DNA from: Sanguibacter keddieii
GTDB lineage: Bacteria; Actinomycetota; Actinomycetes; Actinomycetales; Actinomycetaceae
Assembly (NCBI RefSeq): GCF_001064145.1
Contig: NZ_JVOJ01000036.1
Coordinates: 62,001 to 126,000 of the forward strand
DNA: 64,000 nucleotides
Direction: 5' to 3'
Positions 2,297 through 18,779 of the stretch are shown here, piece after piece (the first letter of the stretch is position 1; each line of letters starts with the position of its first letter). Both the position numbers and the translations under genes were made by a program. The notes under the pieces are model-generated. The model did not search any database and was not told the DNA's origin. It was given only the letters and a program-made list of their open reading frames with translations.

Positions 2297-3109
2297 GTGG
2301 CGTTCTATCAGGCTCTCAAGGCGACCGGCAGCCCCGTTCTCAAGGCGGCCTATCACCCGTGGATCCGCGGCAAGGAGAACATTCCCGCCGAGGGGCCGGC
2401 CATCCTCGCGTCTAACCACAACGCCGTGTGGGACTCGGTGTTCCTGCCGATGATGCTCGACCGCGAGGTCGTTTTCATGGGCAAGGCCGACTACTTTACG
2501 GGCACCGGTCTCAAGGGATGGATGACCAAGGAATTCATGCGCGCAGTCGGCACCATCCCCGTGGACCGCACCGGCGGTCGCGCATCCGAGGCTGCGCTCA
2601 ACGCCGGTCTCAAGCGCCTGCGCGACGGTGAGCTTTTCGGCATTTACCCGGAGGGTACTCGCAGCCCCGACGGGCGCCTCTACCGCGGCAAGACTGGCGT
2701 CGCCCGCCTCGCCCTTCTGTCCGGCGCTCCCGTCATCCCCGTCGCCATGATTGGCACCCATGCAGCCCAGCCCATCGGCCAGAAGATCCCCTCGCGCACG
2801 AACATCGGCATGGTGATCGGTGAGCCCCTGGACTTCTCGCGCTACCGCGGCCTCGATAAGGACCGCTACGTCCTGCGCGCGATCACCGATGAGATCATGT
2901 ACAACCTGATGCTCCTGTCCGGTCAGGAATACGTGGACCTGTACGCTGCCGACGTGAAGGCCCAGCTGGCCGCTGAGGGAGCTTTCGAGGGTCCCGTTCC
3001 CTCCAACGGTCGCCCCGCGCCCGGTGGGCGCACTGCCCCCGAGGTACCCGTGCCGACCGCTCCCGAGGAGGAGGACAACGAGGACGAGAAGGCCTCGGAC
3101 AAGGAGTAA
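2297..3109 (+). CDS. plsC: 1-acyl-sn-glycerol-3-phosphate acyltransferase (PlsC family)
   Basis: The protein of 270 residues transfers an acyl chain to lysophosphatidic acid (or a related lysolipid) at the inner membrane face. The catalytic HX4D box is SNHNAVWD (H41, D46), the substrate-binding YPEGTRS box follows about 75 residues later, and a VPVAMIG strand completes the fold. The start is the GTG at 2297, preceded at six bases by GAGGAG; an in-frame GTG at 2291 is too close to that site. The last 40 residues are a proline- and glutamate-rich tail outside the domain. It resembles the Rv2182c type found near aroG in mycobacteria. No membrane helix is obvious. Confidence 0.88.
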   Translation: MAFYQALKATGSPVLKAAYHPWIRGKENIPAEGPAILASNHNAVWDSVFLPMMLDREVVFMGKADYFTGTGLKGWMTKEFMRAVGTIPVDRTGGRASEAALNAGLKRLRDGELFGIYPEGTRSPDGRLYRGKTGVARLALLSGAPVIPVAMIGTHAAQPIGQKIPSRTNIGMVIGEPLDFSRYRGLDKDRYVLRAITDEIMYNLMLLSGQEYVDLYAADVKAQLAAEGAFEGPVPSNGRPAPGGRTAPEVPVPTAPEEEDNEDEKASDKE

Positions 3110-3149
3110 CAGGGCCGGGCCGTCCACCGATGGTTGGTGCTCGTGATCG

Positions 3150-3201
3150 CGTTTCGTGGGACGGGCGTCCTTGGCGAAACGTGATGTGAGCCAGGTAGAA
3201 T
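3150..3201 (+). promoter_or_regulatory. Candidate pfp promoter overlapped by a nested inverted repeat
   Basis: A TTGGCG box at 3171-3176 and a TAGAAT box at 3196-3201 are 19 bases apart and precede the pfp start by about 60 bases. The -35 region sits inside a symmetrical block: arms CGTTTCG (3150-3156) and CGAAACG (3175-3181) enclose a second palindrome GGACG/CGTCC (3159-3170). This could be an operator or a weak terminator for the acyltransferase gene. Confidence 0.4.
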
Positions 3202-3262
3202 GAACTGTGCCCTGCGCACGCGCGCGGGCCCGTACCTAACCAACCTGAGAAAGGTGACATTC

Positions 3263-4480
3263 ATGTCGGTCCGTCGTGTTGCCCTGCTGACCGCAGGTGG
3301 CTTCGCCCCGTGCCTGTCCTCCGCCGTCGGTGGACTCATCGAGCGCTACAACGAAATTGATCCCACGGTTGAGATCATCGCCTACCAGAACGGCTACCAC
3401 GGTCTGCTCACCGGCAACTATGTGCTGGTCGACGAGGAAGCGCGCAAGCACGCCGCCGTCCTGCACCGCTTCGGTGGCTCCCCGATCGGTAACTCCCGCG
3501 TCAAGCTGACGAACAAGAAGAACCTCGTCGAGCGTGGACTTGTGTCCGAGGATGAGGATCCGCTGCAGAAGGCCGCCGAGCAGCTGCGCGCCGACGGTGT
3601 TGACGTCCTGCACACCATCGGCGGCGACGACACCAACACGACGGCCGCCGACCTGGCCGCCTACCTCGAGGAGCACGACTACCACCTGACCGTCGTGGGC
3701 CTGCCCAAGACGATCGACAACGACGTTGTGCCGATCCGCCAGTCCCTGGGTGCATGGACCGCCGCCGAAGAGGTCTCCGAGTACTCCCAGAACGTTATCG
3801 GTGAGCACCGCTCCAACCCGCGCATGCTCATCATCCACGAGATCATGGGCCGCCACTGCGGTTGGCTGACCGCCGCCGGTTCGAAGCGCTACCACGACTG
3901 GCTGAAGACCCAGGAGTGGGTGCCCTCGATCGGCCTGTCGCAGGAGCGTTGGGACATTCACGCCATCTTCCTGCCCGAGATGAAGATCGACCTGGATGCC
4001 GAGGCCAAGCGCCTCAAGGCCATCATGGACGAGCAGGGCAACGTCAACATCTTCCTGTCCGAGGGCGCTGGCGTCCCCGAGATCATCGCGGAGATCGAGG
4101 CTGCCGGCGGCGAGGTCCAGCGTGACCCCTTCGGCCACGTCAAGCTCGACACGATCAACCCCGGCCAGTGGTTCGCCAAGCAGTTCGCCGAGAAGATCGA
4201 CGCTGAGAAGGTCATGGTCCAGAAGTCCGGCTACTTCTCGCGTTCCTCGCGTGCCAACGCCGACGACCTGCGTCTCATCAAATCGATGACGGACCTCGCC
4301 GTCGAGTGCGCTTTCAAGGGCGAGTCCGGCGTTATCGGCCACGACGAGGAGGACGGCGACCGCCTGAAGGCCATTCCGTTCCCGCGCATCGCGGGCGGCA
4401 AGCCCTTCGACATTTCCGCCCCCTGGTTCGTTGAGATGATGGCCGAAATCGGCCAGACCGTCGAGCCTGCCGGCGAGTGA
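3263..4480 (+). CDS. pfp: Pyrophosphate-dependent fructose-6-phosphate 1-phosphotransferase
   Basis: The 405-residue enzyme phosphorylates fructose 6-phosphate with PPi instead of ATP, a reversible glycolytic step in the cytoplasm. The donor-specificity signature is visible: GGDDT at about 120-124, where ATP-dependent enzymes have GGDGS, and PKTIDND at about 148-154, followed by MGRHCGWLTA. Length matches the roughly 404-residue propionibacterial enzyme. The start is the ATG at 3263 with an AAGGTGA ribosome site; an upstream extension to 3200 lacks one. It is followed 10 bases later by the DAHP synthase gene, so the two probably share a transcript that links glycolytic flux to aromatic synthesis. 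Confidence 0.93.
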   Translation: MSVRRVALLTAGGFAPCLSSAVGGLIERYNEIDPTVEIIAYQNGYHGLLTGNYVLVDEEARKHAAVLHRFGGSPIGNSRVKLTNKKNLVERGLVSEDEDPLQKAAEQLRADGVDVLHTIGGDDTNTTAADLAAYLEEHDYHLTVVGLPKTIDNDVVPIRQSLGAWTAAEEVSEYSQNVIGEHRSNPRMLIIHEIMGRHCGWLTAAGSKRYHDWLKTQEWVPSIGLSQERWDIHAIFLPEMKIDLDAEAKRLKAIMDEQGNVNIFLSEGAGVPEIIAEIEAAGGEVQRDPFGHVKLDTINPGQWFAKQFAEKIDAEKVMVQKSGYFSRSSRANADDLRLIKSMTDLAVECAFKGESGVIGHDEEDGDRLKAIPFPRIAGGKPFDISAPWFVEMMAEIGQTVEPAGE

Positions 4481-14787: not shown

Positions 14788-15894
14788 ATGGCGTTCTCCG
14801 GCCTCGCCCTGTGGGCGGATAACGTGTCCGAGCGCCCATCGTGGGTGCGCGGCACATGGTGCGTCGACGGGGGAGTGATCCGGCGCGTCTCCGACGAAAC
14901 GGAGGCTCCTTCGGTCGGTGTCATTGTGCCCGGCATGGTGGATACGCACTGCCACATCGGCTACTCGGAGACCGGTTCGGTGTCCGAAGATGAGATGGTG
15001 GAGCAGGCTCGGATAACGCTCGGCAGTGGCGTGACCGTCGTACGCGACTGTGGCGTGCCGGTTGATAACTCGCCAGCGGCTCGCGCAACCGGCCTGCACC
15101 TGATCCGCTGCGGTCGCCATGTTGCGCGCCCGAAGCGCTACATGCGAGACCTGCCTCTTGACGTCGACGATCAGCGCGAGCTCCCCGCGGTGCTCGCCTC
15201 GATGGTGCACTCCTCCGACGGGTGGGTCAAGATCGTCGGAGACTGGATCGACCGCAGCGCCGGGGCGGACTCGGACCTCATGCCCCTGTGGGACCCCGCC
15301 GTGTTGACGGACGCTGTTGCCGCAGTTCACGAGGCCGGGGCGAGGATCGCCGTCCACGCGTTCTCGCACCGCGTCATCGACTCGCTCATCGAGGCCGGCG
15401 TTGACGACATCGAACACGGCAGCGGTATCGATGCGGATCAGGCCAGCGAGATTGCCGCACGAGGCATCGCGGTGACGCCAACGCTGCGCCAGGTCGAGAT
15501 CTTCAAGAACTTTGCCGCCCAGGCGGGGGCGAAGTACCCCGTCTATGCGGAGACGATGCAGGGCATGTACGACGCGCGGCGCGCCCACTTCCAGATGCTC
15601 GTCGACTCTGGCGTCCTTCTCCTCATGGGAACCGACTCAGGAGGTTATCAGGAGCACGGCACGATCGCCGGCGAGCTTGACCTGTGGCTCCAGTGGGGCG
15701 CGCCCGCCCAGCTCACGATCGATGCCGCGACGTGGGTGAGCCAGCGCTACCTTGGCTACCCCGGCCTCGTCGAGGGCGGTCCCGCTGATTTCCTCATCCT
15801 GGACGAGGATCCGAGGGACAACCCGACGATCCTCGCGAAGCCCGTGCGCGTCACGGTGGGGGGAACGTCTGTGTGGGAGCGGCCGTCCGCCTGA
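14788..15894 (+). CDS. Metal-dependent amidohydrolase (imidazolonepropionase/prolidase-like)
   Basis: The 368-residue protein belongs to the amidohydrolase superfamily. The metal-binding HxH is DTHCH (H54, H56) after the typical VPGMVDTH strand. A second-shell IAVHAFSH and DIEHGSG supply the two further histidines, and MGTDSGG supplies the final aspartate. Members hydrolyse amide or C-N bonds of small molecules; the substrate cannot be deduced. It starts three bases after ffh and ends in the promoter region of rpsP. Insertion of a catabolic-looking hydrolase into an SRP/ribosome gene run is typical of some actinomycetes, so it may only share the ffh promoter. Confidence 0.85.
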   Translation: MAFSGLALWADNVSERPSWVRGTWCVDGGVIRRVSDETEAPSVGVIVPGMVDTHCHIGYSETGSVSEDEMVEQARITLGSGVTVVRDCGVPVDNSPAARATGLHLIRCGRHVARPKRYMRDLPLDVDDQRELPAVLASMVHSSDGWVKIVGDWIDRSAGADSDLMPLWDPAVLTDAVAAVHEAGARIAVHAFSHRVIDSLIEAGVDDIEHGSGIDADQASEIAARGIAVTPTLRQVEIFKNFAAQAGAKYPVYAETMQGMYDARRAHFQMLVDSGVLLLMGTDSGGYQEHGTIAGELDLWLQWGAPAQLTIDAATWVSQRYLGYPGLVEGGPADFLILDEDPRDNPTILAKPVRVTVGGTSVWERPSA

Positions 15895-16110: not shown

Positions 16111-16578
16111 GTGGCAGTTCGAATTCGCCTGAAGCGCGTGGGTAAGATCCACGCCGCCCAGTACCGTGTTGTCGTCGTCGATTCGCGCAAGAAGCGTGAC
16201 GGCCGCGTCATTGAAGAGGTCGGTTACTACGATCCTCAGCCCAACCCGTCGATCATCCGCATCGACTCTGAGCGTGCCCAGTACTGGCTCGGTGTTGGCG
16301 CTCAGCCTTCCGACCAGGTCCGCAAGCTGCTGGTCCTGACCGGTGACATCGCCAAGTTCAACGGCAAGGCCGACGCTGTTTCCCGCGTCATCGTCTCCGA
16401 GGCCGACAAGGCCGCCCAGGCCGAGCAGGCCATCAAGGACGCCGAGGCTGCGGCCGAGAAGTCCAAGGCCGCTGCTTCCGCCAAGAAGGCCGAGGAAGAG
16501 GCCGCCGCTGCCGCAGCCGCCGCTGAGGCTGAGGCCGGCGAGCAGGCTTCCGACGAGGCCGCCGGAGAGGATGCCTGA
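16111..16578 (+). CDS. rpsP: 30S ribosomal protein bS16
   Basis: The 155-residue protein begins with the standard bS16 sequence ([31 protein letters not shown]...[12 protein letters not shown]) and has the [18 protein letters not shown] segment. It helps assemble the 5' domain of 16S rRNA. The core ends near residue 110; the remaining 45 residues are an alanine/glutamate/lysine-rich helix-like tail, a length seen in actinobacterial bS16. Start GTG 16111 has GGAGAG 10 bases upstream. It heads the cluster rpsP-khpA-rimM-trmD-rplS found across bacteria. Confidence 0.96.
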
Positions 16579-16580
16579 GC

Positions 16581-16820
16581 ATGCTCGCCGACGCGTTGGA
16601 GCACCTGGTCAGCGGCATCGTTGACCACCCCGAAGATGTCGAGGTGACGCCTCGTTCCATGCGACGTGGCCAGCTTCTTGAGGTTCGCGTGAACCCCGAG
16701 GATCTGGGTCGCGTCATCGGACGCGGCGGTCGGACGGCTCGCGCGCTGCGCACCGTCATGGGTGCGTTGTCCACGCGTGGCACCGTCCGCGTTGATGTCG
16801 TCGACACGGATCGCGAGTAA
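16581..16820 (+). CDS. khpA: KH-domain RNA-binding protein KhpA
   Basis: The 79-residue protein is a single KH domain. The GxxG-type loop is in LGRVIGRGGRTARALRTVM, preceded by the VEVTPRSMRRGQLLEVRVNPEDLG strand-helix. KhpA (YlqC/Rv2908c type) binds RNA broadly, often with KhpB/Jag, and affects cell elongation in Gram-positive bacteria. It begins two bases after rpsP and is translationally coupled to it. Confidence 0.93.
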   Translation: MLADALEHLVSGIVDHPEDVEVTPRSMRRGQLLEVRVNPEDLGRVIGRGGRTARALRTVMGALSTRGTVRVDVVDTDRE

Positions 16821-16909: not shown

Positions 16910-17422
16910 ATGCAGCTCACAGCCGCTATCGTCGGCCCCGCCCACGGTTTGCGAGGCGAGGTCATCGTGGACGTGCGCAGCGACGATCCCGAGGTGTTGG
17001 CACCCGGATCGCGCTTGGACATTGCGGGAGACCAGCGCACCCTGACAGTGCACAGCGTTCGCGTGCACAAGGATCGCGTGCTCGCTTCCTTCGAGGAGTG
17101 CTCGACCCGCGAGGAAGCGGAGGCCCTGCGCGGCGCCCGCCTGCTTGTCGACGCTCATCCCGAGGAGGATGCCTGGTACCCGCATGAGCTCAAGGGTCTT
17201 CAGGCGCGCACTCCGTCCGGCGATGTTCTCGGTACCGTTAGCGGACTGACCCCGGGTGCGGCTCAGGATTTACTCCTTGTTTCCACGGATAGCGGCACTG
17301 TCATGGTTCCCTTCGTGACGGCGCTCGTTCCGACGGTCGACGTTGAGGGAGGGGTCGTTGTGATCGACGCGCCTCCCGGCCTGTTTGACGACGATGCGGT
17401 GTCGGAACGCGAGGACAACTGA
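16910..17422 (+). CDS. rimM: Ribosome maturation factor RimM
   Basis: The 170-residue protein assists 30S head maturation through bS19. The N-terminal RimM beta-barrel shows IVGPAHGLRGEVIVDVRSDDPE and RVHKDRVLASFEECSTREEAEALRGARLLV. The PRC-barrel follows with DAWYPHELKGLQARTPSGDVLGTVSGLTPGAAQDLLLV and VPFVTALVPTVD. Start ATG 16910 follows CAGGAG. It is in the usual place directly before trmD, with a four-base gap between its stop and the trmD start. Confidence 0.95.
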   Translation: MQLTAAIVGPAHGLRGEVIVDVRSDDPEVLAPGSRLDIAGDQRTLTVHSVRVHKDRVLASFEECSTREEAEALRGARLLVDAHPEEDAWYPHELKGLQARTPSGDVLGTVSGLTPGAAQDLLLVSTDSGTVMVPFVTALVPTVDVEGGVVVIDAPPGLFDDDAVSEREDN

Positions 17423-17426
17423 CACC

Positions 17427-18779
17427 GTGCGCTTCGATCTCATCTCGATTTTCCCTGACTATTTTGCGCCCCTTCGCCTGTCGCTGATGGGGAAAGCGGA
17501 GGACGCTGGCCTCGTGCATCTGCAGGCACACGATCTGCGCGATTGGGCTACTGGCAAGCATCGCAGCGTCGACGACACGCCCTACGGCGGTGGCGCGGGC
17601 ATGGTGATGCGTGCCGATGTGTGGGCTCGTGCCCTGGACGATGTACTGTCCGTTCCGCTTGCCGATGGTATCGACGAAGGTGCCCATGCTTCGCCGCGTC
17701 GCATCCTCGCGATTCCGACGCCGTCCGGCACACCGCTGACTCAGCCGCGCGTGGAGGACCTCGCGCGCGCCGACCAGATCATCGTGGCGTGCGGGCGCTA
17801 CGAGGGTATCGACGCGCGTGTCGCCGAGCACTACCGCAGCGTCGGCGTCGAGGTTGTCGAGTTCTCGATCGGCGACTATGTCCTCAACGGCGGCGAGGTC
17901 GCCGCAATGGTTCTCACCGAGGCAGTCGCGCGCCTCCTCGACGGCTTCATGGGGAACCCGGACTCCCTCGTCGAAGAGTCGCACTCGGGCGCGGGACTCC
18001 TCGAATACCCGGTGTTCACCAAGCCGAGGGAGTTTCGCTCGCTTGAGATTCCCGGGGTGCTTCTCGGCGGCAATCACGCAGCGATTGAGCGATGGCGCCG
18101 CGACCGAGCGATTGAGAAGACAGCTCGCGTTCGCCCAGATCTCGCGCTGTCGCTGGATGCTTCGTCCCTGACGCGCGAGGACCGTGCGATGCTGGCCCGC
18201 TGCGGTGTTGCCTACCCGCGAGCTGGAGCGGCGGAGCCGCTCGACGTGCGACAGGCTGAGCTTGAGGACGTCGTCGCAGTCAGCGAGCTTGCGGCGCGCA
18301 CGTTCCCGGATGCTTGCCCGGAGAACCTGCCCGAGGAAGCGATTGCGGAGCACATCGCCACGCAGCTCAGCGCCGACGTGTTTGACGCTCTTATTTCCGA
18401 TCCTGAACGTCACCGTCTGTTCGTCGCCGAGGTCTGGGGTGGCCTCGTCGGTTACGTGCTCACCCACGTTGGACCCGATGCGCTGCCGAGCGATCTCGTA
18501 TGTCCCGGACGCGTCGATGCGGGCAGCGCATACCTGTCCAAGTGCTATGTCGACCGGGCGTGGCGGGGCAGCGGTGTTGCGGACGCGCTCATCGAGCGTG
18601 CCATCGCCGATGCGCAGGACTTGGGGCATGCCGCTCTTGTGCTCGGCACCAATCGCGGTAACAAGGAGGCCCAGGCCTTTTACAAGCGCCACGGATTCCG
18701 GAAGCGATCGAGCCGTACCTTCGATGTGGGCGGTGTACGCAACTACGACGTCGTCATGGTGCGTGATCTCACCGCATAA
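17427..18779 (+). CDS. trmD: tRNA (guanine37-N1)-methyltransferase TrmD fused to a GNAT acetyltransferase
   Basis: Residues 1-255 are a full TrmD: FDLISIFPDYF at the start, DTPYGGGAGMVM, the SAM-binding trefoil-knot segment ACGRYEGIDAR (about 121-131) with FSIGDYVLNGGEVAAM, and the helix-rich LLGGNHAAIERWRRD. It methylates G37 to prevent frameshifting. Residues 260-450 add a GNAT N-acetyltransferase domain with the acetyl-CoA loop DRAWRGSGVADALIERA (about 376-392) and the C-terminal NKEAQAFYKRHGFRK segment. Usual TrmD length is about 230-270, so the fusion adds 190 residues. No stop or frameshift separates the parts. Start GTG 17427 has GAGGACA upstream. The acceptor of the acetyl group is unknown. 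Confidence 0.93.
   Translation: MRFDLISIFPDYFAPLRLSLMGKAEDAGLVHLQAHDLRDWATGKHRSVDDTPYGGGAGMVMRADVWARALDDVLSVPLADGIDEGAHASPRRILAIPTPSGTPLTQPRVEDLARADQIIVACGRYEGIDARVAEHYRSVGVEVVEFSIGDYVLNGGEVAAMVLTEAVARLLDGFMGNPDSLVEESHSGAGLLEYPVFTKPREFRSLEIPGVLLGGNHAAIERWRRDRAIEKTARVRPDLALSLDASSLTREDRAMLARCGVAYPRAGAAEPLDVRQAELEDVVAVSELAARTFPDACPENLPEEAIAEHIATQLSADVFDALISDPERHRLFVAEVWGGLVGYVLTHVGPDALPSDLVCPGRVDAGSAYLSKCYVDRAWRGSGVADALIERAIADAQDLGHAALVLGTNRGNKEAQAFYKRHGFRKRSSRTFDVGGVRNYDVVMVRDLTA

Follow-up and report, generated by a model that had tools for sequence, protein, structure and literature searches.

TrmD fused to a GNAT acetyltransferase domain of predicted PaiA/LcGNAT type in Actinomycetaceae and two related families

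The window, that is, the whole 64,000-nucleotide stretch of DNA that was analysed, encodes a protein in which the tRNA (guanosine(37)-N1)-methyltransferase TrmD, together with its native C-terminal extension, is continued by a full GNAT domain. The trmD-GNAT fusion gene (17427..18779, + strand, as are all window features given below) is one open frame of 450 amino acids that runs from a GTG start to a TAA stop. We propose, with a probability of about one in two, that the gene of an actinobacterial amine N-acetyltransferase was captured by trmD and has been kept as an active enzyme tethered to the methyltransferase, a reading that draws on sequence comparison and on a predicted structure.

The uninterrupted TrmD-GNAT frame described in an earlier note on this DNA is confirmed, and both domains lie above their Pfam cut-offs: residues 21-237 match tRNA_m1G_MT (PF01746; 173.7 bits, cut-off 27.3) and residues 317-424 match Acetyltransf_1 (PF00583; 54.7 bits, cut-off 20.7). 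Behind TrmD, the Pfam scan (E up to 0.001) returned three GNAT families and a bpX6 match below its cut-off. An AlphaFold2 model of the window protein, computed with 53 relatives and as a single chain, has a mean pLDDT of 88.6 and a pTM of 0.76, with values of mostly 93-98 in the GNAT part and of 92-97 in the link. In a fold search with this predicted model, mycobacterial TrmD was matched by residues 1-243 (Z about 21-23), and the TrmD of Corynebacterium diphtheriae aligns up to residue 262; therefore, what looks like a linker is mostly TrmD's own extension, and the GNAT starts just after it. The range of residues 1-255 that the earlier note had given for TrmD is near enough to these borders. 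The protein is thus made up of the TrmD catalytic part (residues 1-242; 17427..18152), the native TrmD C-terminal extension or link, which is a predicted feature (residues 243-269; 18153..18233), and the PaiA-subclass GNAT domain, assigned by Pfam and by profile and fold comparison (about residues 270-450; 18234..18776). The stretch WRGSGVA (residues 379-385), which had been read as an acetyl-CoA loop, indeed fits the R-x-x-G-x-A acetyl-CoA loop of the GNAT superfamily, and the pyrophosphate loop motif itself, R-G-S-G-V-A (residues 380-385), is encoded at 18564..18581. In-frame start codons are present at residues 255 and 274 of the fusion protein; the Met at residue 255 is absent in all 21 aligned relatives.

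The N-terminal half is recognized as TrmD by the NCBIfam profiles TIGR00088 (216.2 bits, cut-off 195) and NF000648 (278.5 bits, cut-off 220). It shares active-site residues, operon position and fold with ordinary TrmD, from which the window protein differs by about 180 extra residues that are predicted to form a second enzyme domain. The active-site acid, the arginine and the general-base acid are present as E126, R169 and E184 (Glu for Asp; Glu184 at 17976-17978), which we take, by motif, to be the probable equivalents of E116, R154 and D169 of the Escherichia coli enzyme. For E. coli TrmD, these three residues are described as acid, arginine and general-base acid of the active site (PMC1829167, partial text). 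Glu occupies the general-base position in 111 of 112 fused rows (one was missed by the search pattern), in 12/12 unfused rows and in 36/40 other actinobacterial TrmDs, the four with Asp being class relatives; Asp is found in all five aligned actinobacterial structures. Since Glu is ordinary in the phylum, we rejected the idea that the exchange is a peculiarity of the fusion. Judged by its family membership and its intact active-site residues, the N-terminal TrmD would methylate G37 of tRNA as usual. TrmD is an essential bacterial enzyme, and many inhibitor-bound TrmD structures exist (entries from Mycobacterium abscessus were among the fold-search matches).

The gene order in the window is rpsP-KH-rimM-trmD(-GNAT)-rplS. 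The gene for ribosomal protein S16, rpsP (16111..16578), is followed by a gene of 79 amino acids (16581..16820) with a GRVIGRGG motif, found by eye, that is presumably of the KH type, and by rimM (16910..17422), whose stop lies 4 bases upstream of the GTG of trmD; rplS, encoding ribosomal protein L19 (18952..19308), follows 172 bases downstream of the fusion gene. With S16, RimM and L19 identified by Pfam and the KH gene by eye, the location of the fusion inside the rpsP-rplS cluster is borne out. Between rpsP and a frame that we presume to be ffh-like lies a further frame (14788-15894) with a VDTHCH motif, seen by eye, which is presumably amidohydrolase-like.

The fusion is present as one frame in 33 of the 35 genomes of the genus; therefore, a sequencing error or a lost stop codon between the domains is ruled out. 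One of the two exceptions (G021, 70% complete) gave no TrmD match; in the other (G010, 84% complete), about residues 218-388 are missing in frame and an N marks the joint, near position 4476 of its locus L026, which we judged to be an assembly fault. In 297 genomes sampled from the order, for which both the GNAT alignment and the whole-fusion alignment served as queries, the fusion was found in 23/24 genomes of the window's own family (f1) and in 2/2 and 23/23 genomes of two further families (f12 and f13), together 48/49; for f13, 22 of the 23 cases were read at the locus and one, G328, at a contig end. Among the TrmD matches listed, none was fused in the 248 genomes of other families; five genomes gave no TrmD match, and the order search may have missed a trmD joined to a GNAT of very diverged sequence. 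An unfused relative of the GNAT (E up to 1e-25) was found in 63 of these 248 genomes; five of the matches, all in family f3, have weak E values (1e-27 to 1e-29) and are possibly paralogues. Unfused status was judged from the contig and position of both matches, from open frames that are too short to hold both domains, or from the locus itself. The earlier note had named relatives with separate, unlinked genes as evidence against its reading, and this applies in part: in the other families, the related GNAT, where found, is a gene of its own. Across the phylum (396 genomes), the window's own genome was the sole fused case among the matches listed.

The GNAT part is 95% identical to that of a record named Schaalia and 78% identical to that of a record named Actinomyces, and family f13 appears to include Ruania, as suggested by an identical GNAT sequence (L115 and L058). 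A contig titled Xylanimonas cellulosilytica (JVKM01000016.1, L071) also has a 95% identical GNAT part; its genome was placed in the window's genus, and the title looks wrong. The fused genomes of the order sample have no second close GNAT copy except G328, in which two partial GNATs lie at contig ends (L254 and L255), one of them fused to TrmD. These two have 83% DNA identity over 296 bases, which is too low for a simple contig overlap; the second one may come from another strain in the assembly or may be a second copy. In the genome of the window, one distant GNAT paralogue was found at the threshold (4.5e-26). In genome G071 (locus L151, minus strand, 2884-4089), one TrmD from the window's own family ends in about 160 extra C-terminal residues, possibly an eroded GNAT, in which a GNAT is unrecognisable; because of this extension, the GNAT domain appears to be dispensable.

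By sequence profile and predicted fold, the GNAT domain belongs with the PaiA and LcGNAT amine acetyltransferases and not with RimI. In a profile search of solved structures, its best relatives were LcGNAT of Lactobacillus curiae (8osp, E 4.3e-29) and PaiA, the spermidine/spermine N1-acetyltransferase of Bacillus subtilis (1tiq, E 2.4e-27), with the best RimI entry far behind (E 1.5e-9). In the fold search, residues 271-450 of the predicted model matched 1tiq with a Z of 23.9 (rmsd 1.9, 172 residues aligned, 21% identity), the nearest fold among the GNAT matches listed, and the GNAT part matched 8osp with a Z of 23.2; the best 50 rows were mostly TrmD, and the absence of RimI and TmcA among them proves nothing. 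RimI, the alanine N-acetyltransferase of ribosomal protein S18, has the superfamily in common with the window GNAT, but the domain reaches only 33.5 bits with the RimI profile TIGR01575 (cut-off 86.4), and a separate, true RimI (109.8 bits) is encoded on contig 32 of the same genome (G000). The analogy to RimI-type enzymes drawn in the earlier note is thus not supported, and we rejected this assignment.

The likeness to PaiA and LcGNAT has its limits. With 41.8 of the 250 bits needed, the domain is far below the cut-off of the PaiA equivalog NF053587. Residues were matched to LcGNAT by profile alignment, after it had been worked out by hand that chain and paper numbering differ by three residues. 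Both active-site tyrosines are found, Tyr374 (18546..18548) at the position of LcGNAT Tyr97 and Tyr419 (18681..18683) at that of the catalytic Tyr142 of LcGNAT and PaiA, but the position of Glu92, the proposed general base, is taken by Tyr369 (18531..18533). As reported for LcGNAT, the exchanges E92Q, Y97F and Y142F each lower activity, and the enzyme acetylates canavanine and not arginine (PMC10416765, partial text). Hence, the window enzyme retains two of the three residues tested there. It further differs from PaiA in being fused to TrmD and in coming from a genome without a spermidine synthase match, and from LcGNAT in that the latter stands alone and is associated with a guanidine riboswitch (PMC10416765, partial text).

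Residues were counted in 96 fused sequences (the faulty G010 included) and in 81 of 82 free ones, each distinct by its exact GNAT sequence. Tyr419 and Asn412 are present in 96/96 fused and 81/81 free sequences, Asp441 in 96/96 and 80/81, and Tyr374 in 95/96 and 81/81, the single gap being that of the G010 assembly. Gly383 of the loop is found in 86/96 fused sequences (it is changed in 9 of the 95 readable ones) and in 76/81 free sequences. At the position of LcGNAT Glu92, Glu is present in 42/96 fused and 67/81 free sequences, and Tyr in 51/96 fused ones, the window included. In eight pairs of near relatives of the window, which are mutually non-independent, dN/dS was 0.11-0.15 in the GNAT part and 0.04-0.09 in TrmD; four of five other pairs gave 0.03-0.23 and 0.02-0.13, respectively, and one was saturated. 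The value was higher in the GNAT than in TrmD in all 12 computable pairs. Because of these values, purifying selection on the GNAT is clear, with a constraint weaker than that on TrmD. The fusion described in the earlier note is genuine and, given its occurrence in the genus and in the three families and the dN/dS of the near relatives, also old and selected. When the window was compared with a relative (L002), synonymous divergence was 0.65 in the TrmD part and 0.21 in the GNAT, a hint that close relatives may have recombined within the fusion gene.

How often the fusion arose was addressed with quick trees of the GNAT, built from thinned sets of 45 of the 96 fused and 64 of the 82 free sequences; for the AU test, seven free rows that were long or unsure were left out, so that 57 remained. 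Eight f13 sequences with a short link of 2-5 residues formed a GNAT clade of their own (SH-aLRT 99), apart from the other fused GNATs, and in the first GNAT tree one further f13 sequence (L157) stood beside an unfused one. A single fused clade was not rejected (AU p 0.333). In a TrmD tree of 53 rows, some unfused TrmDs of family f8 were placed between fused groups, with weak support. One origin of the fusion is the simplest count; there may have been one gain with a loss, or two gains. In our model, a separate actinobacterial gene would have become attached behind trmD, in the simplest case a single time, in the ancestry that Actinomycetaceae share with the two related families.

The unfused copies show in which surroundings the GNAT gene is found apart from trmD. 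At all 61 unfused loci, rpsP, rimM and rplS are absent from the flanks covered, and two of these loci lie near rplA. In Arthrobacter sp. GMC3 (L113, 3183-4534), the unfused GNAT is next after rplA, in the stretch from rplK-rplA to L7/L12, with a terminator-like hairpin, seen by eye, between rplA and the GNAT; in a Micrococcales MAG (L132), it is about 3.3 kb from rplA. A gene for an AFG1/ZapE-like ATPase (the family was named from one locus) accompanies 30 of 53 clustered unfused loci, mostly of Mycobacteriales, and other unfused copies adjoin malate synthase or further genes. The unfused GNAT of Mycobacteriales shares the TFPxACP, LSK-x-Y, N, Y and D positions with the fused domain and is an apparent unfused relative of it, differing as a separate gene away from trmD. 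Going by the gene order, the copy beside the AFG1/ZapE-like gene is probably Rv2669 of Mycobacterium tuberculosis. Rv2669 is listed as an acetyltransferase of unknown substrate (PMC10407107, partial text) and is counted among the acetyltransferases of M. tuberculosis (PMC6923341, partial text).

According to our preferred reading, the C-terminal GNAT would be an enzymatically active member of the PaiA/LcGNAT subclass, an amine N-acetyltransferase that transfers the acetyl group of acetyl-CoA to a small primary amine, as suggested by the predicted fold, the CoA loop and the catalytic Tyr. The replacement by Tyr of the very Glu whose exchange (E92Q) weakens LcGNAT speaks against it; because this replacement is found in the window and in about half of the fused sequences, the chemistry may differ from that of LcGNAT. 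No match to spermidine synthase (PF01564) was found in the window's genome, and therefore, a home-made polyamine is unlikely as the substrate; imported polyamines, amino-acid analogues and other amines remain as possible substrates. By the fusion, the acetyltransferase may have gained steady expression from a ribosomal operon and a tie to an essential enzyme. We consider such co-expression and tethering more likely to be the benefit than the hand-over of one tRNA between two active sites.

A role of the GNAT in translation, as raised in the earlier note, is possible but rather unlikely. The fusion would place the GNAT at its target, which could be the TrmD-bound tRNA or an aminoacyl-tRNA, but also a ribosomal protein or translation factor; the location in the rpsP-rplS cluster, the long retention and the purifying selection would fit this, as would the two unfused copies near rplA. 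Consistent with such a role, a suggested task of the related LcGNAT is to prevent the entry of canavanine into protein (PMC10416765, partial text). However, the 59 of 61 unfused loci away from rplA and the lack of rpsP, rimM and rplS in the flanks of all 61 argue against it, as do the varied neighbours of the other copies and a GNAT sequence that is not RimI-like. TrmD is more acidic than the GNAT in net charge, which is uninformative on RNA binding. It is quite unlikely, though imaginable, that TrmD-GNAT is a dedicated translation-fidelity enzyme: once TrmD has marked G37, or during this step, the tethered GNAT would acetylate a decoding partner such as a ribosomal protein or an amino acid, mischarged or toxic, located on or close to the tRNA, and the change from Glu to Tyr in the window's lineage would reflect a new substrate.

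The capture might also have been accidental, with a GNAT that has an unrelated metabolic job and is retained because an essential gene encodes it. That the unfused gene is patchy (63/248) and almost never lost once fused (48/49), and that the neighbourhoods of unfused copies vary between lineages, would be in line with this. A stop after TrmD could easily delete the GNAT, yet erosion is seen in G071 alone of 49 genomes, and the GNAT part is clearly under selection; hence, we consider mere persistence unlikely. It is very improbable that the GNAT is no longer catalytic and mainly stabilises TrmD or aids tRNA binding, as might be read from the changed loop Gly383, the exchange of the general-base Glu in about half of the fused sequences and the unrecognisable extension retained in one lineage, for Tyr419, Asn412 and Asp441 are invariant in all fused sequences, TrmD works without a GNAT in most families sampled, and the loop Gly is lost in 5/81 unfused copies, too. 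Loop decay was also rejected as proof of a dead domain in view of LcGNAT, whose acetyl-CoA loop is degenerate although the enzyme is active, as is often so in polyamine acetyltransferases (PMC10416765, partial text).

Our literature search, outside of which lay most subscription papers and the automatic domain databases, found no description of a TrmD-GNAT fusion. A structure of a TrmD-Tm1570 protein from Calditerrivibrio nitroreducens is, we assume, PDB entry 8b1n. Fusions of the TrmD-Tm1570 type have been described (PMC1829167 and PMC11187310, partial texts), and the C. nitroreducens protein has in common with ours a second enzyme domain at the C terminus of TrmD (PMC11187310, partial text). 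Its second domain is a SPOUT methyltransferase (PF09936), whereas that of the window protein is a GNAT, and the Pfam scan of the window protein (E up to 0.001) found no PF09936 behind TrmD.

A large lineage that includes Actinomyces and Schaalia species probably makes TrmD as a two-enzyme protein. The genome with the unrecognisable extension, G071, offers a natural test of whether the GNAT domain matters. Beyond this lineage, the fusion gives access to a GNAT that is uncharacterised and occurs widely in Actinobacteria, for where the two are fused, the acetyltransferase half is separately removable.
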